Positions 16,188 through 38,843 of a stretch of DNA of 43,208 nt are shown one piece after another. This DNA is from a virus. The position numbers were made by a program, and so were the translations under genes. The first letter of the stretch is position 1. Every line of letters begins with the position of its first letter. The DNA lies in IMG/VR virus record IMGVR_UViG_3300049435_000021, positions 1 to 43,208 of that record; one strand, 5' to 3'. The notes beneath the pieces are model-generated. The model worked only from the letters and a program-made list of their open reading frames with translations. It searched no databases and was not told the origin of the DNA.

Positions 16188-16636
16188 CTCGTTGCCTCGG
16201 TTACAGTTATCGGTCGTCGTCTCGAAATCCATTGTGCCACAGCACATCTCGTTAGCTCAGAAAACGCCTCTGACCTGCGGGTTTGGGCGTAAATCGCAGT
16301 TTCCTTCTCCGCGAAAAATCCGAGTGCCTAGCAGCGGGGCGATCTTGATTTGCTTTGAAGTTCAACCCCCCTCGTTTATGCAGGTCAGGGGCCTGCCGAG
16401 GGTGAATCAGTGTTTGCTGAGGGTGCATTTCCGCAGGTCAGACGCCCATGGTACAAGCAGTGGTACATCGGGCATCAAGATAGGGTGGTTACACTAACTA
16501 GTTGAGGGCGGTTACACATACTTTGCCCTATACCCCGCCAGGGTATCCCACCCGGTAAGGTATCTCCTTTGTAATGCATTGCTGCACAGTACCTTTCATG
16601 CATGTGAATCACGTTGTGCCACAACACCTTTGTGGC
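16188..16636. other. Repeat-rich noncoding region upstream of terminase (packaging-site candidate)
   Basis: No convincing gene fills these 449 bases. They hold three copies of GCAGGTCAG: 16380-16388, 16433-16441 and inverted at 16270-16278. Two of them lie in a 12-base inverted pair, 16269-16280 with 16431-16442. There are also two direct copies of AGGGYGGTTACAC (16482-16494, 16505-16517), two GAGGGTG copies near 16398 and 16419, and one perfect plus one partial copy of palindrome family 2. The position in front of the small terminase suggests a pac/cos or operator region. Confidence 0.6.
16613..16625. repeat. Palindrome family 2, perfect copy GTTGTGCCACAAC
   Basis: An intergenic perfect copy of the GTTGYGSCRCAAC palindrome, with partial copies at 16232-16242 and 16709-16719 nearby. 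Confidence 0.85.
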
Positions 16637-16876
16637 TCAAGCACTATGCACACCCATATCACCTAGTATGCATGGCGTGTAGCAATGGGGTAGCACGGGC
16701 GAGTAGTACTGTGGCACACCATGATTAGGCACTATTGAATCATGCTGTGGCACAACAGCTTTCGTACTGTGCAGCATAGCCCATACGACCAGGGCCAGGC
16801 ACACCAGGACAATGGCTGCACACGTACCATACACAGTGGCACGCAGGCCCATGATATCCAGTGTGCGCCTTACCAT
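16637..16876 (-). CDS. Small membrane protein
   Basis: A 79-residue frame starts MVRRTLDIMGLRATVYG at 16876, overlapping the HNH stop by seven bases (ATGGTAA). It has one strong membrane segment (TCAAIVLVCLALVVWAML, about residues 17-35) and a Pro/His/Tyr-rich tail. The tail contains VVPQ encoded by a family 2 palindrome at 16744-16756. An earlier in-frame start at 16891 exists. No family is recognised; whether it is expressed is inferred from the coupling. Confidence 0.5.
   Translation of the reverse strand: MVRRTLDIMGLRATVYGTCAAIVLVCLALVVWAMLHSTKAVVPQHDSIVPNHGVPQYYSPVLPHCYTPCILGDMGVHSA
16744..16756. repeat. Palindrome family 2, near-perfect copy
   Basis: GCTGTGGCACAAC lies inside the small membrane protein gene and is read as Val-Val-Pro-Gln, in the same phase as other coding copies. 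Confidence 0.75.
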
Positions 16877-17226
16877 TTCGGCCGTACCCAATCCTGTTGT
16901 GCCACAACGTTTCTCGCTTGGTGTGTACGGTTACATCTGCAATGGCTGGCACGTAAGTTGTTCCATGCCAGCATAAGCCGAGGGTGTGTGGACCGAGGCT
17001 TACGATGGTCAGTCTCGTACGCGTACGGCGTGCTATGCACCGCCTCGTAGTCGATGGGCGCACCACCGAGGACACACTTGCCATGCGCCGCATACCAACA
17101 CGGCAGGTTACGAGATGCACTGTAGGACTTGTGCTTTCGCTTCAATGCCCGCCATGCCGCACTGTCCAGTCCGGTACCCGAAGGTGTTGTGCGCCTTGGC
17201 TTTCGAGCGGTTACCTCACGGGCCAC
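16870..17226 (-). CDS. HNH endonuclease near terminase
   Basis: A 118-residue basic protein has AYETDHRKPRSTHPRLMLAWNNLRASHCRCNRTHQAR. The DH pair, central Asn-Asn and later His fit the HNH fold, with Cys residues that could hold zinc. HNH proteins beside terminase genes are needed for specific DNA end cutting in several HK97-like phages, so a packaging role is likely, though a free homing nuclease is possible. The start is a GTG at 17226 overlapping the previous stop. The C-terminus contains VVAQQ from a family 2 palindrome. Confidence 0.85.
   Translation of the reverse strand: MAREVTARKPRRTTPSGTGLDSAAWRALKRKHKSYSASRNLPCWYAAHGKCVLGGAPIDYEAVHSTPYAYETDHRKPRSTHPRLMLAWNNLRASHCRCNRTHQARNVVAQQDWVRPKW
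16896..16908. repeat. Palindrome family 2, perfect copy in HNH gene
   Basis: GTTGTGCCACAAC, read on the minus strand as Val-Val-Ala-Gln near the HNH C-terminus. Confidence 0.85.
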
Positions 17227-17686
17227 GGTACGGCAGCCGTTCGAGGGTGACGCTGGTGATGTTCACCGGAGTAGCGGCCGTGGGCGCTACAAACGCGAAG
17301 TTTGAAAGTCGTTGCAGCGCACCGCCGTAGGTGACGTTATGAAACCGTACGTGGTACACCAAGGGTTCACCGAAGTCTAGCCAAGCCGTATTAGCAACTA
17401 GCTCAACACCTTTGGGATCACCGACCGCGATTGTGGAGAGCACACCCTCCATGATTCTGCCGGTGATCGGTGCCAGTGATAGCTCTGTGTCGCCAAACGT
17501 AGCGTAATCCGGTACGTACAAAGTCAATCCGCCGAGTAACGCCTCACCGGCAGTGCCAGGGAAGAAATCGACGTACGCGCTCACGTCCTCCACGCGTGGT
17601 GTGATGACACCAGCATTTTGGGGCAACGGCTGCTCAACATCCTGCCAAGCGCCGTCGACACGAAAGTACGTAAGAGAGTTGGGCAT
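17216..17686 (-). CDS. Phage protein of unknown function, possibly a virion component
   Basis: The chosen start is ATG at 17686 (MPNSLTYFRVDGAWQDVEQPLP), giving 156 residues; the frame is open to 17749, but the earlier part is Cys-rich and less protein-like. The sequence is beta-rich, with ITPRVEDVSAYVDFFPGTAGEALLGGLTLYVPDY. I recall similar proteins in mycobacteriophages, where they are unnamed or called minor tail proteins. It is followed by the HNH gene with a short overlap. Function is not assigned. Confidence 0.7.
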   Translation of the reverse strand: MPNSLTYFRVDGAWQDVEQPLPQNAGVITPRVEDVSAYVDFFPGTAGEALLGGLTLYVPDYATFGDTELSLAPITGRIMEGVLSTIAVGDPKGVELVANTAWLDFGEPLVYHVRFHNVTYGGALQRLSNFAFVAPTAATPVNITSVTLERLPYRGP

Positions 17687-17767
17687 TGGGAATCCGATTC
17701 TGGGCAGCATGCATGGCTGACAATCGCATGATACAGAACTACGAAACATGCTGCAAACACAGTCTTT

Positions 17768-17926
17768 TCATGGCGTGTCGCCCTGTAGCTTATTTAGTGA
17801 AAATTGTTGTGGCACAACGTATGTTCCTGTTCCTAACCCGACTGAGTCATCTGACTCAGTTGGCCTGCCCTCATCAATGAGCGAATTGATACGCGCCACC
17901 AGGGCATCGAATTCGTCTCTGTTCAT
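17768..17926 (-). CDS. Small protein carrying both palindrome families
   Basis: This 52-residue protein starts at an ATGA overlap with the upstream DNA-binding gene (MNRDEFDALVARINSLIDEGRP). The first 23 residues form a likely helix. The rest is largely built from the two repeats: TESDDSV from family 1 (17841-17860) and YVVPQQF from family 2 (17806-17818). About half of its C-terminal part is therefore repeat sequence. Function is unknown. Confidence 0.65.
   Translation of the reverse strand: MNRDEFDALVARINSLIDEGRPTESDDSVGLGTGTYVVPQQFSLNKLQGDTP
17806..17818. repeat. Palindrome family 2, perfect copy GTTGTGGCACAAC
   Basis: It lies inside the 52-residue gene and is read as Val-Val-Pro-Gln, 22 bases from a family 1 copy. 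Confidence 0.85.
17841..17860. repeat. Palindrome family 1, copy 3
   Basis: ACTGAGTCATCTGACTCAGT inside the 52-residue gene, read as Thr-Glu-Ser-Asp-Asp-Ser. Confidence 0.9.
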
Positions 17927-22190: not shown

Positions 22191-22588
22191 GGTCGCCTGC
22201 TCAGCATGATCGCTCTGAAAGCTTGTGCCTGCCAAGGCTCTAACGCCTGACCCTGTTCTTCCATCCAGTCGATGGCGCGTTCCACCAGTTCCTCGGGTGA
22301 GGCGGCAGGTCGAACGTTTGCAGGGATACCGGCAGGCGGGCCGGATATGGTGCCAACAAAAGGCATGTTTTGCAGTAACGGTACGGCTTCACCTGGTTCG
22401 TAGACTGGCTTAAGTTGTTGCAGCGCATTGTTTTCCGTTGCTTCGTTGGCGTGTGCCCATAGGATTTTCACGCACGGCTGTTTAACATAGGTCGGCGAGT
22501 GGCAAACCACGCAGGACCGGGTACACGCGGGCCCGCACGTGCACAGCGTGTAGGCGGTTGATAGTTCTTTGATGTCGGGATAGCTCAC
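22187..22588 (-). CDS. Cys-rich hypothetical protein
   Basis: This 133-residue protein has an N-terminal Cys cluster (LCTCGPACTRSCVVC), a Pro-rich linker and a C-terminal helical part (PEELVERAIDWMEEQGQALEPWQAQAFRAIM). The last part resembles a short helical hairpin found in other phage early proteins. It is coupled by overlap to both neighbours in the replication operon. Function is unknown. Confidence 0.65.
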   Translation of the reverse strand: MSYPDIKELSTAYTLCTCGPACTRSCVVCHSPTYVKQPCVKILWAHANEATENNALQQLKPVYEPGEAVPLLQNMPFVGTISGPPAGIPANVRPAASPEELVERAIDWMEEQGQALEPWQAQAFRAIMLSRRP

Positions 22589-22746
22589 GATTGCACCTTC
22601 GTCCTGAATTCGATTCGTACGCCGTCGATTTCGCCGTTCAACAGTTGTGCTAGTCGTATCAGTACCGCTTGCCCGACCTGCTGCTGTTTCTCCACTGTCA
22701 TGTTGAGCCCTGTTACTGTCATGGTCGTCGGTTCTTTACGTGTCAT
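22585..22746 (-). CDS. Small hypothetical protein
   Basis: This 53-residue protein runs MTRKEPTTMTVTGLNMTVEKQQQVGQAVLIRLAQLLNGEIDG and ends VRIEFRTKVQS. A strong AAAGGA site with seven-base spacing supports ATG at 22746 over the longer frame. It is likely a mixed alpha/beta domain. No family is recognised. Confidence 0.62.
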   Translation of the reverse strand: MTRKEPTTMTVTGLNMTVEKQQQVGQAVLIRLAQLLNGEIDGVRIEFRTKVQS

Positions 22747-22873
22747 TGGTGTTCCTTTCGTAATCTGTTCTGTCGTAAAGCTTTTCGAGCGGCACGGTTT
22801 CCTCGCCCGCATCCATGGCTATGGCACGGGATTTCGCGCCAGCGGTCGCGGCCTGGTCACTCTGGCTGCACAA
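22736..22873 (-). CDS. Possible small protein with TTG start
   Basis: The frame ends KLYDRTDYERNTNDT and overlaps the next start by 11 bases. GAGGAGGG sits five bases before a TTG at 22873, giving 45 residues; an ATG further down would give 26. Without it there would be a 110-base hole in an otherwise gap-free operon, which is the main support. The product would be soluble and acidic. Confidence 0.42.
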   Translation of the reverse strand: MCSQSDQAATAGAKSRAIAMDAGEETVPLEKLYDRTDYERNTNDT

Positions 22874-23081
22874 CGTAACCCTCCTCGTCACCGCCCACCT
22901 GATAGATGAGCAACCGCAGAATCCCCTGTAGCGCAACAGCTATCGCATAGTCAGCGGCACGCGGCCCGTACATTCCTGCCAGGTGTTCGCGTGAGATACG
23001 GTAGTATTCACGGGCAGCATCCAATGCCATCCGTCGCGGCCTCGTCGGGTCGTTAGGGTCGGACGGTGCGGCGTGCGTCAT
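22857..23081 (-). CDS. Hypothetical protein
   Basis: This 74-residue protein starts MTHAAPSDPNDPTRPRR and continues into an amphipathic helical region (ALDAAREYYRISREHLAGMYGPRAADYAIAVALQGILRLLIYQV). ATG at 23081 overlaps the upstream stop as ATGA. The second half could form a helical bundle or touch the membrane. No family is recognised. Confidence 0.62.
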   Translation of the reverse strand: MTHAAPSDPNDPTRPRRMALDAAREYYRISREHLAGMYGPRAADYAIAVALQGILRLLIYQVGGDEEGYVVQPE

Positions 23082-23239
23082 GATCTCGCCGCCTGCTCCC
23101 AATGCATGGCCTCTTCGAGTTTCGTTAGCACCAAAGCTTTTTCGCGTTCATGCCCGTCTGGTATGCGGTTGGCTACGGTCATGGCGCACTCGTACCACCA
23201 GTCGTCACCGAAACGCTTCTGTATGAAACCCTTTTCACT
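23078..23239 (-). CDS. Possible Acb2/Tad1-hairpin-like small protein
   Basis: A 53-residue frame from GTG at 23239 ends with ECAMTVANRIPDGHEREK and ALVLTKLEEAMHWEQAARS. That ending resembles the helical hairpin of Acb2 and Tad1, phage proteins that soak up cyclic nucleotide signals used by CBASS and Thoeris defence; related proteins often end LTKLEEAMMWANAAIAR. The gene lies between the PrimPol and an ATGA-coupled neighbour. The start lacks a strong ribosome site. The assignment rests on motif memory only. Confidence 0.5.
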   Translation of the reverse strand, partial: SEKGFIQKRFGDDWWYECAMTVANRIPDGHEREKALVLTKLEEAMHWEQAARS

Positions 23240-23244
23240 TGGTG

Positions 23245-24006
23245 TCATTTCAGTAACTCTCCTTTGATGATTGGGCTAGGTTCCACTAGCCACGTGTAGC
23301 TGCGTCCTGGTGCACGCAGCAGCGACGGCGGCGCAACCACGTAGCCGCCGAGTCCCCGGTAGTCGATGCCCGGTCGTATGCCTGCGTAATTCCTTTTGCC
23401 CGTTGGTTTTACGTATAGGTGTGTGCCGCCTGACGCGGTGACGGCTACGGCGTGGCATTCCGGTACCTTGTGTGCGTCGAGTAGCTCCATGAATGAGTGC
23501 ACCCCGTCGTGGCATGGGTTGCCGTCGGAATCCTTTGTGTCGACGTCGATCACGTCGAACATGTGCCCGGTGGCTAGCCCTATGTTGTGTTCGGGATGTC
23601 TGTCCCACCATTTCTCGATGCGTTTGCGGTCTGTTGTTGCGTCTTTGAATCCTTTGCCGCCTTTGGCTTTCGGGATGGCTGGTGCCTTGGAGTGTTTGGC
23701 GAGTGGGAACACGGGCCAGCCGTTGCTTGCGTATTCGTATGCGGCGGCACCTAATTCGATGTTGCGCATAGACTCCATCAGTTCCTCGGTTTCGGCTGCC
23801 CGGTCTGAGTCACCTGACTCAGTCTCGCTGACCCATAGGTCGCCGAGGGATTCCAGCTGCGTCTGTACCGTAGCGCACGTTGGGTGTGAATGCTGTTCCG
23901 CCGTAATAACTTTCATCAGCGACCCGCAGTCACGACACGTCGAGTACACATCGACCAGCCCGTCGAGGAACAGGGGCGGGTTACGCGGGTCATAGATGAC
24001 TGTCAT
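23245..24006 (-). CDS. Primase-polymerase (PrimPol)
   Basis: This 253-residue protein carries a bifunctional primase/polymerase core. Catalytic acids lie in FDVIDVDTKD (Asp 154 and 156), followed by TASGGTHLYV (His 196) and GIDYRGLGGYVVAPPS (Asp 215). The N-terminus has a possible zinc site (STCRDCG, later HSHPTC) and a TESGDS repeat copy in the linker. It should prime, and perhaps copy, phage DNA with the RecA-fold helicase. ATG at 24006 follows GGTGGGA. The frame is open to a GTG at 24162, but that extension would read through a long palindrome. Confidence 0.85.
   Translation of the reverse strand: MTVIYDPRNPPLFLDGLVDVYSTCRDCGSLMKVITAEQHSHPTCATVQTQLESLGDLWVSETESGDSDRAAETEELMESMRNIELGAAAYEYASNGWPVFPLAKHSKAPAIPKAKGGKGFKDATTDRKRIEKWWDRHPEHNIGLATGHMFDVIDVDTKDSDGNPCHDGVHSFMELLDAHKVPECHAVAVTASGGTHLYVKPTGKRNYAGIRPGIDYRGLGGYVVAPPSLLRAPGRSYTWLVEPSPIIKGELLK
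23804..23823. repeat. Palindrome family 1, copy 5 (in PrimPol)
   Basis: TCTGAGTCACCTGACTCAGT, read as Thr-Glu-Ser-Gly-Asp-Ser in the linker before the catalytic domain. Confidence 0.88.
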
Positions 24007-31771: not shown

Positions 31772-31825
31772 GACCGCCTGCCCCAACCGGATTGGAGACA
31801 AAGCCAACAGCCAGGGCAGGCGGTC
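31772..31825 (-). terminator. Hairpin holding an inverted start-associated element
   Basis: The 12-base arms GACCGCCTGCCC (31772-31783) and GGGCAGGCGGTC (31814-31825) are perfect. The 30-base loop carries GATTGGAGAC in the plus-strand sense (31790-31799), so the minus-strand transcript shows its complement. This may be a terminator or a regulatory hairpin between the two flanking genes. Confidence 0.6.
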
Positions 31826-33739: not shown

Positions 33740-33970
33740 CACCTCGGCCAGGAACGGATGCTCGGTGTCGGCCTTGCGTGCGGCCACGATCTGCTCGAAC
33801 AGGGTCTCTACTGATTGGCGTGTCTTGCAATGGATTTCGGTGCCGTTGTGCTTGCCGCCGACGATGCGCAGCAGGTAGCGCATGCCGTCGTCGTCGGGAT
33901 GATGCTCTGCCACAATGGATTCGGTGCACCGCTGATAGCAGCGCAGTATGTGTTGCGCGGTGAATGGCAT
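33737..33970 (-). CDS. Small protein with start-associated leader
   Basis: This 77-residue protein, MPFTAQHILRCYQRCTESIVAEHHPDDDGMRYLLRIVGGKH and onward, is compact and alpha/beta in composition. GATTGGAGAC precedes the ATG, as for five other genes up to 38.5 kb, and settles the start against the longer frame to 34123. A gap of 306 bases lies upstream. Function is unknown. Confidence 0.65.
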   Translation of the reverse strand: MPFTAQHILRCYQRCTESIVAEHHPDDDGMRYLLRIVGGKHNGTEIHCKTRQSVETLFEQIVAARKADTEHPFLAEV

Positions 33971-34207
33971 GGCTTGTCTCCAATCAGTGACTTGGTCGTC
34001 GTGTCGTGACACTACGCGCCTGCCACAACATTGCAACGTGTTGACACGGCGTGTCGCGAACCTGTGAATATATTTTTTCCCAAGACAACGACCCCAATGG
34101 CCTGCTATGGCACCATGTTTCATCGCCTACGGTAGCGAACCTGAGTTGCTATCCCTGGCAGTAACCCTGGCACACCGATTCCCGGCCCTGAGCTGGCTTG
34201 TGGGCAT
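33971..34207. promoter_or_regulatory. Noncoding control region upstream of the 77-residue gene
   Basis: After the start-associated element (33971-33985) lie two GTGTC/GACAC inverted elements: GTGTCGTGACAC at 34001-34012 and GACACGGCGTGTC at 34043-34055. An AT-rich patch follows (34065-34078), holding a -10-like TATATT on the minus strand but no clean -35 partner. A CTACGGTAG palindrome is at 34127-34135. The region probably holds the promoter for the downstream minus-strand genes. I see no gene in it. Confidence 0.45.
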
Positions 34208-34245
34208 AAAAAAAGCCCACCGCAGGGTTTTCCCCCACGGCAGGC
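34208..34245 (-). terminator. Intrinsic terminator after the RHH gene
   Basis: On the minus strand GCCTGCCG pairs with CGGTGGGC (two wobble pairs), with further inner pairs GGG/CCC, followed by seven T (34214-34208). This is a textbook rho-independent terminator. It ends the transcript coming from the exported-protein and RHH genes. Confidence 0.88.
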
Positions 34246-34276
34246 TTCTCTATGTGCTTGTGTCCCCTCCGATCTA

Positions 34277-34486
34277 TCACGTAGCCGATGAATGGTTGTC
34301 GTGATTCCCGCGCGTTAGCTGCGATGTATATACACTTTCGCCGGTCGAACTGTCCTGCTGTATATACAGAGTGAGCCAAAACCGAATCAGCGCCGACAAG
34401 TCGTCACCCTCGCGTCGAGCACGAGCATGCGCCTTGGCCCACAAATCGTCTGGTACCCGAACGGTTCGTATCTTGGTTTTCGCCAT
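34277..34486 (-). CDS. Ribbon-helix-helix DNA-binding protein
   Basis: This 69-residue protein reads MAKTKIRTVRVPDDLWAKAHARARREGDDLSALIRFWLTLYI, a classic ribbon-helix-helix: a short basic strand then two helices. Such dimers bind palindromic operators. The ATG at 34486 overlaps the preceding stop as TGATG. The 3' part of the gene carries two TGATATACA-like palindromes (TGTATATACA at 34325 and 34359), which suggests it may bind its own gene. A strong terminator follows. Confidence 0.82.
   Translation of the reverse strand: MAKTKIRTVRVPDDLWAKAHARARREGDDLSALIRFWLTLYIQQDSSTGESVYTSQLTRGNHDNHSSAT
34325..34369. repeat. Two TGTATATACA palindromes in the RHH gene
   Basis: TGTATATACA at 34325-34334 and CTGTATATACAG at 34358-34369, centres 34 bases apart. 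The same ten bases occur once more in the window, inside the promoter at 38815-38843. Confidence 0.8.
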
Positions 34487-34836
34487 CACGTTACCGTCTT
34501 CTCTGTCGCAGTCCACACCCTGAACGCGGGCATGTTCGATGGGCACAAATCCCATATGGCACTGGTGATTACGACCGATGCGTCATGGCTCGACACACCG
34601 GCGTTGATTGCCTTGATTGCCTCTGTGTCGAGTCCATCTGCGCCGTACTGGCTTGCCGATGTGCAGATCTGGTATCCGACCACCAGCGCGGCCGGTCCTG
34701 CGTAGGCACCATGCGCGGCAACATCTTTCAGAAATGTTGCCTCATCAGCATGTGCCTCGGCAGGCCAGATGGCCTGTCCCACGGCGCACCCCGTCAACAC
34801 GCACACCCCGAGAATGGCTAGCTTGCGTCGTGTCAT
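34486..34836 (-). CDS. Exported DUF732-like protein, possible lipoprotein
   Basis: This 116-residue protein begins with a signal peptide, MTRRKLAILGVCVLTGCAVG, where LTGC fits a lipobox; an Ala-x-Ala cleavage near EAHAD is an alternative. The mature part, DEATFLKDVAAHGAYAGPAALVVGYQIC with later WDLCPSNMP, matches DUF732, a family of small exported mycobacterial proteins with two Cys. A start-associated element precedes the ATG. In a phage this could be a superinfection-exclusion or host-surface factor, by analogy with phage-borne lipoproteins. It looks acquired from a host. Confidence 0.75.
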   Translation of the reverse strand: MTRRKLAILGVCVLTGCAVGQAIWPAEAHADEATFLKDVAAHGAYAGPAALVVGYQICTSASQYGADGLDTEAIKAINAGVSSHDASVVITSAIWDLCPSNMPAFRVWTATEKTVT

Positions 34837-34860
34837 TTTTGCGTCTCCAATCGTTGTGGC

Positions 34861-34916
34861 AGTCTCTTCAGTGCCAGCATGCCAAAGCTGGCAGACCCAC
34901 TGTGTGGCAGTGGGTT
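34861..34916 (-). other. Two tandem hairpins in the spacer upstream of the DUF732 gene
   Basis: TGCCAGC pairs with GCTGGCA around 34876-34897, and CCCACTG with CAGTGGG around 34899-34917. They lie between the stop of the 58-residue gene and the start-associated element. They are probably transcript-processing or partial terminator structures. Confidence 0.55.
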
Positions 34917-34921
34917 TCGAC

Positions 34922-35098
34922 TCAGCGCCCGATCTGCGAGCGCGTGTAAAACGCGATGTTGGTTACCAGCCTGTTGGCCAGCTCCAACTGTTCAGGTGTC
35001 GGATCTGCAATGTCTAGCAGTTCCAGCATGTTCTCCACTGCCTTAACCCGAAAGTAGTTGTACTGCCGGGCAATTGGCAGCCTACCTGTGGGGTTCAT
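34922..35098 (-). CDS. Small hypothetical protein
   Basis: This 58-residue protein, MNPTGRLPIARQYNYFRVKAVENMLELLDIADPTPEQLELANRLVTNIAFYTRSQIGR in outline, is helical. GGGGGAGGGACA precedes the ATG, a very strong ribosome site, and the gene overlaps the preceding one by 17 bases. No family is recognised. Confidence 0.62.
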   Translation of the reverse strand: MNPTGRLPIARQYNYFRVKAVENMLELLDIADPTPEQLELANRLVTNIAFYTRSQIGR

Positions 35099-35309
35099 TG
35101 TCCCTCCCCCTGTGCGCTTTGAGCCACGCACCGAAGTTAATCAGTGTGTGGCCCTTAGCTTTCCAGTGTTCGACGTCACCGACATACTCGCCGGTGACAG
35201 CTTCTCGATGCTGCTCCTGCCGCCACCGCTCGAGCCGGTAGGACTCGACCAAGTCGGCGTGAGCCGGTGAACATGACCGGTGCCGGGGACTACATGGCGT
35301 GAAAGTCAT
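35082..35309 (-). CDS. Small hypothetical protein
   Basis: This 75-residue protein begins MTFTPCSPRHRSCSPAHADLVESYRLERWRQEQH and ends AWLKAHRGRDNEPHR. It is basic and helical. ATG lies three bases after the preceding stop. Function is unknown. Confidence 0.6.
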   Translation of the reverse strand: MTFTPCSPRHRSCSPAHADLVESYRLERWRQEQHREAVTGEYVGDVEHWKAKGHTLINFGAWLKAHRGRDNEPHR

Positions 35310-35312
35310 TGT

Positions 35313-35528
35313 TTACCCAACCTCTTTCGTGATATCAAAGGACCACACATCCCAAATAGGTGCGTAGTCCTTAACTTTCACGCCGTAGCGGATCTTGTCA
35401 CCAAATTTCATGATGTCACGCACAACGCCATGTCGACGTGGCTGACCACCCCAACGCCAAGACACACGGTCACCGACCCTGATTATGTCGGGATCGTATG
35501 GCGGGCAGTTGATTTCGTTTATACTCAT
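35313..35528 (-). CDS. Small beta-barrel-like protein
   Basis: This 71-residue protein, MSINEINCPPYDPDIIRVGDRVSWRWGGQPRRHGVVRDIMKFGDKIRYGVKV and onward, has the GDRVSW...GVV pattern of small SH3-like barrels. It is preceded by a canonical start-associated element (35529-35545), which fixes the start. A long frame to 35615 is rejected for that reason. Function is unknown. Confidence 0.68.
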   Translation of the reverse strand: MSINEINCPPYDPDIIRVGDRVSWRWGGQPRRHGVVRDIMKFGDKIRYGVKVKDYAPIWDVWSFDITKEVG

Positions 35529-35570
35529 GTTTTGTCTCCAATCGTTGTGATGGTTCGGTTGAATCCATCT

Positions 35571-35597
35571 CATACTGCACAGACCCGAAAGCCTGTG
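35571..35597 (-). other. Hairpin in the spacer before the SH3-like gene
   Basis: CTGCACAG (35575-35582) and CTGTGCAG (about 35593-35600) form an eight-pair stem. It follows the stop of the 112-residue gene and precedes the start-associated element, the same order as in the other spacers of this block. Confidence 0.55.
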
Positions 35598-35616
35598 CAG
35601 CATGCGTTGATTCACC

Positions 35617-35955
35617 CTAGTGGGTTGACCACGTCTTACCGCCGTCGTGACTATGCACGCCAGCGGCCAGCACTCTGCGGTCTACTGGTCGTGACGAAAG
35701 CTGCTCTGCCCGTTGAATTGCGAGCTTCGCAGCAGCGCTGCCGGTGCGTGTCATGGTCCGGTAGATGCAGGCGTCGGTGAGTCCGTCGCGGTCGGAATCG
35801 GTTAGGCCGGTGAAGGTGACCGCACCCTGCGGGCCCACCTTCAGTTGTACCGTGCGGTTCGCGATCAGCTTGTCAATGCCCGACATGCGCTTACGTACCT
35901 CAGCTTTGCGCTGCGCGAGTGTCTGGCGCGGCTTAAGCATTGTGTCGCATACCAT
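35617..35955 (-). CDS. Hypothetical protein with start-associated leader
   Basis: This 112-residue protein begins MVCDTMLKPRQTLAQRKAEVRKRMSGIDKLIANRTVQLKVGPQ, is basic and helical at the N-terminus, then has a segment LTDSDRDGLTDACIYRTMTRTGSA and ends HSHDGGKTWSTH. GATTGGAGAC precedes the ATG. No family is recognised. Confidence 0.65.
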   Translation of the reverse strand: MVCDTMLKPRQTLAQRKAEVRKRMSGIDKLIANRTVQLKVGPQGAVTFTGLTDSDRDGLTDACIYRTMTRTGSAAAKLAIQRAEQLSSRPVDRRVLAAGVHSHDGGKTWSTH

Positions 35956-36026
35956 TTCGTGTCTCCAATCATTAGCGGGCTGAGTTGCCCAGCGGCACAG
36001 CCTCTTTGAGGCTGGCCGAGTGTCAC
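35956..36026 (-). promoter_or_regulatory. Spacer module B: start-associated element plus nested hairpin
   Basis: The element GTCTCCAATC (plus-strand view) is followed by CTGAGTT, CCAGCGGCAC, then a stem CAGCCTC/GAGGCTG (35998-36014), then GGCC and ACTCAG at the stop of the preceding gene. CTGAGT and ACTCAG pair as an outer stem. This spacer is nearly identical to module A at 36834-36902. Confidence 0.75.
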
Positions 36027-36833
36027 TCAGACTGCTTTCCTGCGGGCCGGTACATCAAGGTCGATGTTGCGGCCGCTCTGCTTCGGCTTCACAACAGCCA
36101 CCTTTGACACGTCGGTGTTGACGTCGAGGAACGCTGTGCGCGCCTGCTTCACCTTCCGAATCGTTTGGCGGTCAACCTCTTTCGCTGCCTCGTTACCAGC
36201 CTTGACGATCTTGCTTGCTGCTTCGCGTGACGCTTTGATCGCCAGTTCCAGCCGTGATCCGGCTTCCGGGGTAAGCATCTTGCCAGCCTCAGCCGCCTTG
36301 TTCGCAGCTTCACGAATCGCCTTGGGATCCAACGCTTTCAGACCCTCTTGCATGTCGTCTATCAACTGCCGGATAGTGCCGGTGATGGCACGCATTGTTT
36401 CCACATCATCCTGTGCGATGATTCCGCAGTAGCAATAGAACTCGATGTGAGTGGTTCGTGCCTTGGCGTTGAATTCGTCAGCGAGCCTATGCCCTTCGGC
36501 GATAGCCTCACGCAGCAGTTGTTGCCGCCGTACCTCCGTCACGTTGCCGTCGGCATCCTTCACCTGAACAACGTCGTTGGGGCAGAGCAGCGTCCCCTTG
36601 AAAGCTGTTGACACGCAAACCGAAAGGATCAACCCACGGATCTTGGTGCGCTGCTTGATCGCCCGTTCCTGTTCTTCCACGTCACTAACCGTCTTGCGAG
36701 TGTGTATGTCTGTGACCTCCGTGCGGTCCAGGCGTTGCACGTCGCGGTCAATGCCGTGATAGGACACGTTGCCCTCAACGCTGGTGAACATACTCACCAG
36801 CAGGCCGGGGCGAAGTGTTTGAAACTCGGTCAT
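36027..36833 (-). CDS. Hypothetical helical protein paired with the AAA+ ATPase
   Basis: This 268-residue protein starts MTEFQTLRPGLLVSMFTSVEGNVSYHG, has a central part with two close Cys (FYCYCGIIAQDD) and a long helical Ala/Lys-rich C-terminal half (AANKAAEAGKMLTPEAGSRLELAIKASREAASKIVKAGNEAAKEVD). The start-associated element settles ATG at 36833. It follows the AAA+ gene through a matching spacer module, so the two are probably expressed together, and this may be a substrate or adaptor. No family is recognised. Confidence 0.7.
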   Translation of the reverse strand: MTEFQTLRPGLLVSMFTSVEGNVSYHGIDRDVQRLDRTEVTDIHTRKTVSDVEEQERAIKQRTKIRGLILSVCVSTAFKGTLLCPNDVVQVKDADGNVTEVRRQQLLREAIAEGHRLADEFNAKARTTHIEFYCYCGIIAQDDVETMRAITGTIRQLIDDMQEGLKALDPKAIREAANKAAEAGKMLTPEAGSRLELAIKASREAASKIVKAGNEAAKEVDRQTIRKVKQARTAFLDVNTDVSKVAVVKPKQSGRNIDLDVPARRKAV

Positions 36834-36902
36834 TTTGTCTCCAATCGTTGTGGACTGAGTTGTCCAGCGGCACACCCTCTTTCGAGGGTGGCCTAGTACT
36901 AC
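36834..36902 (-). promoter_or_regulatory. Spacer module A: start-associated element plus nested hairpin
   Basis: It has the same order as module B: GTCTCCAATCG, CTGAGTTGTCC, CAGCGGCAC, the stem CACCCTC/GAGGGTG (36873-36890), GGCC, then ACTCAG containing the AAA+ stop codon. The stem bases differ from module B but stay paired, a sign of conserved RNA structure. Confidence 0.75.
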
Positions 36903-38489
36903 TCAGTTGATGTCCAGTAACCGGCCCTTACCCTTTCGGACGGTACCAGCCTCTGGCTTGCTGGCAGGGCGAGCGCGCCCCAGCCAGAATTCACGCAGCC
37001 GAGCGATCTTCTCGCTCTGCTGCTTCGCAAGCGGCACAACGTCTTTTGCTGCCATGAGCAAATCATCGGTTGTGATTTTGCGAACGCCGTCATTGAACGC
37101 CGTACGCAGCGCATCAGGTACCAACGCGGCCATCTCGGCACCAGTGAATGTGTCGGTTGCCTCGGCAACACGATTCAAATCCACCGGCGCGATACCGCCG
37201 TTCGGCCCTGTGTCATAGGTACGCATTGCTGACGACAGGACCGCTGCACGCTCGACTGTGGTTGGCAGGTCAACCCACCAAACCTCGTCAAAGCGGCCCT
37301 TGCGCAACAGCTCCGGTGGAAGCTTCTCGGCATTGTTGGCAGTTGCGATAACGAACGCTTCACCTTGCCGATCCTGCATCCATGACAGCAGCGCTCCGAG
37401 CGCGTCAGCACTTACCCCGCCGTCTCCGGCCTCACCGCTGGCACCGGCGAGCGCTTTCTCGATTTCGTCAACCGCTACGATGCAGCGGCCCACGGCCTCG
37501 ATAACGCCTAATGCCTTGCGCAGGTTACCTTCTGACTCACCAACGTATTTCGACTTGAGCGCTCCGAGGTCCAGTTTGATCAGCGGCACTTGCCATTCAC
37601 CGGCGAGGGCCTTGAACATGTAGCTTTTCCCGCAGCCTGGAATCCCGACCAGCACAGCACCTTTCGGTGATGGCAGCCCGTAGGCGCGTGCCTCAGGGCT
37701 GAACGCTGTTGCCAGGCTTGCCGCCCAGCTTGTCAGGTTCTCAAGTCCGCCAACGGATTTCAGTCCGCGCGGCAGAGGTTCGATCCATTCCAGCAGGCCA
37801 TCCTTCGCGATCTTCCGCTTCTTCTCGGCGGATATGATGCCAGGGTCGATCTGCTTGAGTTGAACGATGGACTTGGCGAAGGTGGCTTGCGCCTCTTCAC
37901 CCGAAAGCCCAACCGCCGCATCTATTGCCGCGTCACGCGTACCGTTCATAATGTCCGGTAGATCCTCGATGTACGGCTCAACTGTTGCGTCGAGCAGTTC
38001 ACCGATTTCTTCGCGGTCAGGCAATGGCCACTCCAAAACTGTTGCATGGTTTGCCAATTCGGCGGGAACGTCCTTAGTTGGTGAGATCACAATGATAGCC
38101 TGCGCGTCGTCTTGATCCCTGCCGGGGAGCGAGCGAGCCAGATTCTTCAAGGCACGCAACGCAATTGGTCCGGTAGGTCCGCTAATCCATGCGGGGAAGT
38201 CCCGCAACACCCAAACTGTACGCTGACCCGCAGTCGTGTCGATACGTTTCAGTGCTTCGTCAGGGTCTTGCGCGGCATTCTCAATTGCCCCGTAAGGATT
38301 AAGGGGCTTACCCGAGTAATCGGTGAAACCTGCTGCCACGTCCCAGAATTGGGTGAGGAAACCGGCCAGGGCCGCAGCCTCGTAGAGGTAATCCTCCACG
38401 CGTGCTTCTTCCCCGGTCACAACCCATAGAAGCGGGTTGCGTGCGCGGAGTAGTGCGGCTATGTCCAGCATGACGCTTTGTGATTTCAT
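36903..38489 (-). CDS. AAA+ ATPase (Ycf46/FtsH-like)
   Basis: This 528-residue protein has an N-terminal domain (residues 1-240) that starts like Ycf46-type ATPases (LLRARNPLLWVVTGEEARVEDYL). Its AAA+ module has Walker A GIPGCGKS (282-289), a pore-loop-like KSKYVGESE (312-320), Walker B CIVAVDEIEKAL (336-347), sensor 1 ATANN and an Arg finger in RKGRFDEVWW. A helical lid follows. It probably remodels a protein or complex using ATP. It has its own promoter, long leader and start-associated element. The phage role is unknown. Confidence 0.85.
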   Translation of the reverse strand: MKSQSVMLDIAALLRARNPLLWVVTGEEARVEDYLYEAAALAGFLTQFWDVAAGFTDYSGKPLNPYGAIENAAQDPDEALKRIDTTAGQRTVWVLRDFPAWISGPTGPIALRALKNLARSLPGRDQDDAQAIIVISPTKDVPAELANHATVLEWPLPDREEIGELLDATVEPYIEDLPDIMNGTRDAAIDAAVGLSGEEAQATFAKSIVQLKQIDPGIISAEKKRKIAKDGLLEWIEPLPRGLKSVGGLENLTSWAASLATAFSPEARAYGLPSPKGAVLVGIPGCGKSYMFKALAGEWQVPLIKLDLGALKSKYVGESEGNLRKALGVIEAVGRCIVAVDEIEKALAGASGEAGDGGVSADALGALLSWMQDRQGEAFVIATANNAEKLPPELLRKGRFDEVWWVDLPTTVERAAVLSSAMRTYDTGPNGGIAPVDLNRVAEATDTFTGAEMAALVPDALRTAFNDGVRKITTDDLLMAAKDVVPLAKQQSEKIARLREFWLGRARPASKPEAGTVRKGKGRLLDIN

Positions 38490-38814
38490 TTTGTCTCCAA
38501 TCGTCGTTGTGGCTTATCTCATCAGCGATTTGGTAGCCATCCAAACCGGACCCGCTGCTAGGCAACGGGTTTCGATTGAAGGAGACAAGGAACGTCAGAC
38601 GTCGCTGGTAACACTGTCGCGGCCAACTCGTAACGTGGTGTCCCACTGGCTGGTGTTATGCAACTAACTCTCCCGTGCTAGTCATCTGTTCCTCTAATGA
38701 ATTTCGTCGGAACCTTTGTCCATCTAACCCCGCGCTACTAGCTAACGGGGACTGGTGTCCCAACCCGGTAGCGACATCCTGGTTTGAAGGGGCTTTCCGG
38801 TCTGATCTACGATC
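38490..38814 (-). promoter_or_regulatory. Long structured leader of the AAA+ gene
   Basis: These 325 bases between a promoter and the AAA+ start hold no sizeable gene. They contain the start-associated element (38490-38502) and its inverted near-copy CGATTGAAGGAGACAAGG (38573-38590). They also hold a stem ACCCGTTGC/GCAGCGGGT near 38549-38571 and a CCCCG/CGGGG stem near 38729-38751. There are four very short frames (8-11 codons). Pairing of the inverted copies would hide the ribosome site. Confidence 0.55.
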
Positions 38815-38843
38815 AGCCTAAAGGGTGTATATACACTTGTCAA
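38815..38843 (-). promoter_or_regulatory. Sigma-A-like promoter with palindromic operator
   Basis: On the minus strand, TTGACA (38843-38838), a 17-base spacer and TAGGCT (38820-38815) form a good -35/-10 pair. The spacer contains the perfect palindrome GTGTATATACAC (38825-38836), the same core found twice in the RHH gene. It should drive the AAA+ gene and the genes after it. Confidence 0.75.

Follow-up and report, generated by a model that had tools for sequence, protein, structure and literature searches.

The start-associated sequences (SAS) of cluster K mycobacteriophages are short asymmetric repeats which cover the ribosome site a few nucleotides before ATG codons in a block of non-structural genes; their authors left it open whether RNA or protein binds to them, and in four K1 phages a single copy in the opposite orientation was reported, the role of which was unexplained (Pope et al. 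2011, PMC3203893). In cluster K, the extended SAS (ESAS) is an imperfect 17-bp inverted repeat whose arms, according to the authors, do not support RNA pairing, and the ESAS of Adephagia carry SigA promoters (PMC11373665). Hammerhead ribozymes are also known near phage start codons, as in haloviruses HF1/HF2, where a hammerhead variant lies 13 nt upstream of the helicase start (Perreault et al. 2011, PMC3088659). Here, we describe an SAS-like repeat, GATTGGAGAC, in a viral sequence of 43,208 nucleotides (IMG/VR record IMGVR_UViG_3300049435_000021; the whole stretch is referred to as the window). We consider it likely that this repeat serves ribosome binding and is at the same time targeted by an antisense RNA which the phage itself encodes, on an operon segmented by ribozymes.

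The window has six exact copies of GATTGGAGAC on the minus strand, each located 3–6 nt before an ATG opening an open reading frame (ORF), in agreement with an earlier reading made from the sequence only, which had placed the ten bases before the same six ATGs:

38493..38502, minus strand, SAS copy 1 (GATTGGAGAC), start ATG at 38489, AAA-ATPase gene
36837..36846, minus strand, SAS copy 2, start ATG at 36833
35961..35970, minus strand, SAS copy 3, start ATG at 35955
35534..35543, minus strand, SAS copy 4, start ATG at 35528
34843..34852, minus strand, SAS copy 5, start ATG at 34836, DUF732 protein
33976..33985, minus strand, SAS copy 6, start ATG at 33970

A longer form given in the sequence-only reading, CAACGATTGGAGACAAA, is exact at some of these sites and not at all six. 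The variant GATTGAAGAC before 26315, which had been added to the group, has one mismatch and is probably an ordinary ribosome site, because it falls within the ORF upstream of 26315 and lacks a structured leader. Searching the window with at most one mismatch to GATTGGAGAC gave 8 matches, as compared with 2.3 on average and at most 7 in 100 shuffles. Nearly all genes are on the minus strand, with the structural genes at 1–15 kb followed by replication and other non-structural genes, and the SAS copies are confined to non-structural genes, all six at 33.9–38.5 kb. The proposed likeness to the cluster K SAS (PMC3203893) thus holds for position, for conservation past the Shine-Dalgarno core and for the non-structural block: the repeat is asymmetric, has one orientation, lies 3–7 nt before starts and is conserved past the bases pairing with 16S rRNA. 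The sequence is different, as had also been stated (GATTGGAGAC here, GGGATAGGAGCCC there), and does not fit the cluster K consensus; the tag was therefore classed as an analogue outside the cluster K repeat family.

Using the ATPase, ten relatives were found among viral contigs and confirmed by tblastn. Three of them, L008, L013 and L017 (records G001–G003; 43–76% protein identity), contained the exact ten bases before 7, 8 and 7 starts, respectively, with no other copies on the sense strand; together with the window, these related metagenomic contigs are the four phages compared below. All four retained the tag at the orthologous genes for the ATPase, a 268-aa protein, a 112-aa protein and the DUF732 protein. 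Across the 28 sites the ten bases are invariant, as they must be where the ten bases are the search pattern itself, and the next two positions are A in 26 and 25 of the 28, respectively. The sequence-only reading had held that failure of relatives to keep the flanking bases would speak against it; since all ten bases are kept, this objection falls. When viral contigs were scanned with a pattern of SAS plus ATG, most of those returned were chance contigs. It might be argued that the SAS is merely a strong ribosome-binding site spread by duplication and unregulated, given that GGAG stands at a normal spacing from ATG and that A-rich spacers are common. However, GATT and AC have no pairing with 16S rRNA and yet do not vary over the 28 sites, although protein identity among the four phages is 43–89%, and two separate complements of the SAS, described below, are conserved as well, so that we regard this explanation as very unlikely.

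A search of the sense strand for SAS complements revealed a seventh exact copy of the ten bases, on the plus strand at 31790–31799, which was absent from the earlier list. Seen from the minus strand, it forms the loop of a hairpin:

31772..31825, minus strand, antisense hairpin, 18-bp stem, loop GTCTCCAATC (31790–31799) a perfect complement of the SAS

That this copy was a chance match was considered and was overturned by comparison with the relatives, which have counterparts of it: there is one such hairpin in each of the four phages, with stems of 15–18 bp, a few bases past a stop codon and about 1.5–3 kb downstream of the last SAS. The loop reads (U)AUGGCUUUGUCUCC(A/G)AUCC, the window having UUGG instead of UAUGG, and is invariant except for an A to G change in L017, which retains a G.U pair with the SAS. 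The complementarity continues from GATTGGAGAC into AA(A), where UU of the loop would pair with the two A positions kept in 26 and 25 of the 28 sites, and on the 5′ side both it and the conservation of the SAS stop where the loop ends. The stem, on the other hand, differs in each phage: over 15 pairs, 60/60 cells are paired and 10/15 pairs are doubly compensated, with a covariation score of 0.86 versus 0.30 in shuffles (0/500 as good). Folding z-scores range from -5.2 to -7.4 across the phages, with -6.5 listed for the window hairpin. Short ORFs overlap the hairpin, and inspection revealed that the loop is read in different frames in different phages; therefore, a peptide does not explain the conservation of the loop. 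A variable stem with an invariant loop complementary to its targets is the pattern to be expected of a trans-acting antisense RNA with many targets. When all viral contigs were scanned for the loop, these phages were recovered together with two matches (L203 and L204), which lie in apparent coding sequence, have no hairpin and were rejected.

Alternatively, a protein of the phage or the host that acts on RNA at initiation might bind the SAS, in which case the copies in the hairpin loop and the leader would be incidental or connected with that protein. This is the kind of binding on which the cluster K authors did not decide, and relatives L009 and L015 have start-associated repeats without complements in their records. 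A protein site, however, gives no reason to expect that each genome has one reverse complement in a loop held by a covarying stem, or that a second one is present in a leader, and we consider it unlikely. Different start-associated repeats were seen near the same ATPase gene, without ribozymes, in L009, L015, L195 and L201 (AAAGGAGATCA, ACCGATGGAGACTA, CCGCGAAAGG and CCTAGGAGGTC), and Rfam searches of the more distant relatives gave no ribozymes.

As with the ESAS of cluster K and of Microbacterium cluster EF (PMC7302621), a second conserved element is found directly 5′ of about half of the SASs. The structured leaders in the window are:

38516..38576, minus strand, type II hammerhead ribozyme, GAAA / CTGATGA core, loop-I TGGCT pairing with AGCCA after stem II
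34861..34922, minus strand, type II hammerhead ribozyme, Rfam RF02276, 45.1 bits (gathering 37)
36851..36905, minus strand, type A pseudoknot leader before SAS 2, P1 strand carrying the ATPase stop codon
35976..36029, minus strand, type A pseudoknot leader before SAS 3, P1 strand carrying the stop codon of the upstream gene
35549..35615, minus strand, differently structured leader before SAS 4, a long hairpin and a second hairpin, from a single-sequence fold only

The Rfam match spans 34854–34922, pseudoknot strand included, and a second type II hammerhead above gathering was found in L013 (39.2 bits). The hammerhead at 38516–38576 has the canonical CUGAUGA/GAAA core and did not reach an Rfam match, so its assignment rests on descriptor and alignment. 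A core descriptor detected 8 hammerheads in the four genomes (2 in the window, 5 in G001 and 1 in G002), all 8–13 nt upstream of an SAS, and none in 20 shuffled windows; a ninth, L008_10898, was recognized by eye in the alignment. They have the type II features, namely GAAA, UH and CUGANGA in the core, an open stem II and a loop-I pseudoknot, and stems II and III covary (5 pairs doubly changed, 0/500 shuffles as good). These leaders would be self-cleaving at NUH, with predicted cleavage between 38549 and 38548 in the first and between 34894 and 34893 in the second. They resemble RF02276 members (PMC3088659) in the core, in the pseudoknot from loop I to the 3′ tail and in their location, in phage intergenic regions and between the genes of polycistronic messages. 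Unlike known type II hammerheads, they number as many as five or six per phage, are each tied to an identical start tag and are exchangeable with another RNA structure. A literature search for hammerheads in mycobacteriophages returned no such report.

This other structure, designated type A, is a pseudoknot in which UGAGU pairs with an ACUCA located in the loop of a hairpin (stem UGGAC/GUCCA), with an inner hairpin of variable sequence enclosed. In an alignment of nine distinct sequences, 90/90 cells are paired and four pairs are doubly changed; no shuffle equalled either the pairing or the covariation, and slid controls reached 21–41%. A loose type A descriptor had a high background (44 real versus 31 shuffled matches), and for this reason only copies linked to an SAS were used; a type A pattern scan gave the same phages and chance matches only. 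For the ATPase gene, the window and L008 have a hammerhead, whereas L013 and L017 have type A. For the 268-aa and 112-aa genes, L008 alone has hammerheads, the other three phages having type A. For the DUF732 gene, the window alone has a hammerhead, and type A is present in the other phages. Because the two structures replace each other at orthologous genes, a common role is likely. The first strand of the structure takes in the upstream stop codon in several leaders. The leader at window position 33985 and that of L013:12318, a one-mismatch SAS with a GTG start, have other folds and share GACGACCAA 5′ of the SAS.

From this replacement, from the covarying pseudoknot and from the absence of a type A match in Rfam even at lax thresholds, it could be supposed that type A is an undescribed class of self-cleaving ribozyme, functionally equal to the hammerheads. 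Inspection revealed few conserved unpaired bases for a catalytic core, though, and a structural barrier or insulator would look identical, which makes the ribozyme class improbable, about as much so as the protein site. Placing type A with pistol, HDV, hatchet or twister was considered and not supported. Still less credible is that the leaders act at the DNA level as promoters or operators, as proposed for the cluster K ESAS. SigA-like -35/-10 elements occur in the Adephagia ESAS (PMC11373665), and the type A arms CTGAGT/ACTCAG resemble dispersed palindromes of the window. Against this, a consensus scan found no promoter at the leaders, the leaders overlap the upstream stop codon, and G002 has six type A leaders and no CTGAGTC palindromes; moreover, hammerhead swaps and pseudoknot covariation are features of RNA, so that, unlike in the cluster K ESAS, RNA pairing is supported here.

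The first tagged gene has the second complement of the SAS in its leader, downstream of a likely operon promoter:

38574..38586, minus strand, leader anti-SAS GTCTCCTTCAATC, 6+4 bp to the SAS with a 3-nt bulge
38815..38843, minus strand, likely operon promoter TTGACA-N17-TAGGCT, palindrome TGTATATACA in the spacer, read by eye

GTCTCCTTCAATC occurs once per phage in this leader and is invariant in all four, whereas the rest of the leader is unalignable between them apart from the hammerhead in three; the chance of such a complement is about 0.0017 per 400-nt leader. In predicted folds, GTCTCCTTCAATC closes onto the SAS, the duplex being -16.0 kcal/mol as compared with -8.9 for the 16S anti-Shine-Dalgarno. 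The Shine-Dalgarno core is predicted to be more accessible in the hammerhead-cleaved than in the uncleaved form: 0.47 against 0.00 in the window, 0.44 against 0.17 in L008 and 0.51 against 0.23 in L013. Since AATC of GTCTCCTTCAATC also forms hammerhead stem II, a closed start and an active ribozyme would be mutually exclusive. The promoter has counterparts upstream of the first leader in L013 and L017, and the consensus promoter scan did not confirm it at 38815–38843.

Taken together, the antisense reading may be put as follows. A single transcript would start near 38.8 kb, and, between the genes after the first, the ribozymes or compact pseudoknots extending from the upstream stop codon to a point shortly before the SAS would separate each start from the upstream message. 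At the first start, the anti-SAS would keep the site closed in the uncleaved transcript until hammerhead cleavage between the two removes it. Once transcription reaches 31.8 kb, about 2 kb past the tagged genes, the hairpin RNA would appear, exposing UUUGUCUCCAAUC for pairing with GAUUGGAGAC(AAA) over the Shine-Dalgarno core; pairing with all tags would most likely shut off their translation jointly. We infer from the sequences that these RNAs are made, cleave and pair in the cell, and that they repress and do not activate; the same holds for when the effect sets in and which way it acts. One shared control, either translational or transcriptional, had been suggested in the sequence-only reading; shared control is supported, and the evidence favours translational RNA pairing over a transcriptional one. 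That interpretation as a whole is thus partly supported, although three features had gone unnoticed in it, namely the antisense hairpin, the ribozymes and the leaders with pseudoknots. The complete regulon, in which one antisense stem-loop controls every tagged gene of a ribozyme-cut, pseudoknot-folded operon with a cleavage-gated first start, and in which the same logic may explain the cluster K SAS, is more tentative, and our confidence in it is somewhat short of even.

Several observations weigh against the antisense reading. One other GGAG start in the window equals an SAS in duplex score (best -20.7, mean -12.4, as compared with -17.5 to -26.0 for the SAS), neither promoter nor terminator was identified for the hairpin RNA, and the first leader of L017 has the anti-SAS without a hammerhead. 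In the records of distant relatives with other start-associated repeats (G004 and G005), no complement was found elsewhere, and antisense control may therefore not be general. The four phages are also related, G002 and G003 closely, so that their conservation is only partly independent, and stem covariation around a fixed loop is the stronger argument.

By its AAA-ATPase, the window is closest among named phages to the cluster O mycobacteriophages (48% identity), and no close DNA match was found among phage records; the DUF732 protein also points to a mycobacterial host. The palindrome (A)CTGAGTCNNNNGACTCAG(T) is dispersed in 11 copies from 8917 to 40072 of the window (0.17 expected), several overlapping stop codons, and is comparable to the 17-bp dispersed palindromes of cluster O phages Corndog and Firecracker (PMC4351075); unlike the window, the Firecracker region has neither SAS nor Rfam ribozyme. 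Each phage seems to have its own version, G001 sharing that of the window, G003 having CTGAATC..GATTCAG and G002 CTGATCC..GGATCAG. Imperfect inverted repeats of the form GTTGTGGCACAAC occur at 16602–17818, 32304 and 39895. The perfect palindrome TGTATATACA of the likely promoter (38826–38835) recurs at 34325–34334 and 34359–34368, inside a small downstream gene (about 34.3–34.5 kb) which by eye looks like a ribbon-helix-helix regulator, and its autoregulation via TGTATATACA is possible. An RtcB-like RNA ligase, also present in cluster K phages, is located at 22434–23441 of G004 (record of L015), a relative with a different start-associated repeat; RtcB as a partner for the ribozyme ends was rejected, as it is absent in all four phages.

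Reexamination of cluster K revealed an SAS complement in Anaya (JF704106, 59870–59882) and Adephagia (JF704105, 58682–58694); in both, it lies in a non-coding gap, where a stable hairpin of 16 bp presents it in the loop. The hairpin is also kept in Yunkel11, LastHope, Enkosi and Peanam (six compared K1-type phages in all). Other subclusters have it altered or lack it: the loop is changed in DarthP, Shandong1, Yuna, Tierra, ShedlockHolmes and Marshawn, and a search of TM4 and Pixie gave nothing comparable. Rfam gave no ribozymes in the Anaya right arm. Covariation of the cluster K stem is modest; in each of the four phages described here, by contrast, a perfect opposite copy lies within a covarying hairpin. 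The case for an antisense logic general to cluster K is weak.

The function of the SAS of actinobacteriophages has been open since 2011, and this locus offers a specific answer, namely that they are targets of antisense RNA. It also links phage hammerhead ribozymes to a defined task at translation starts, where a pseudoknot leader replaces them. The tag is probably a switch read by RNA pairing. If this is true, the same antisense logic may explain the cluster K SAS, for which the complement in a hairpin loop of a K1 subset is a lead, not proof.

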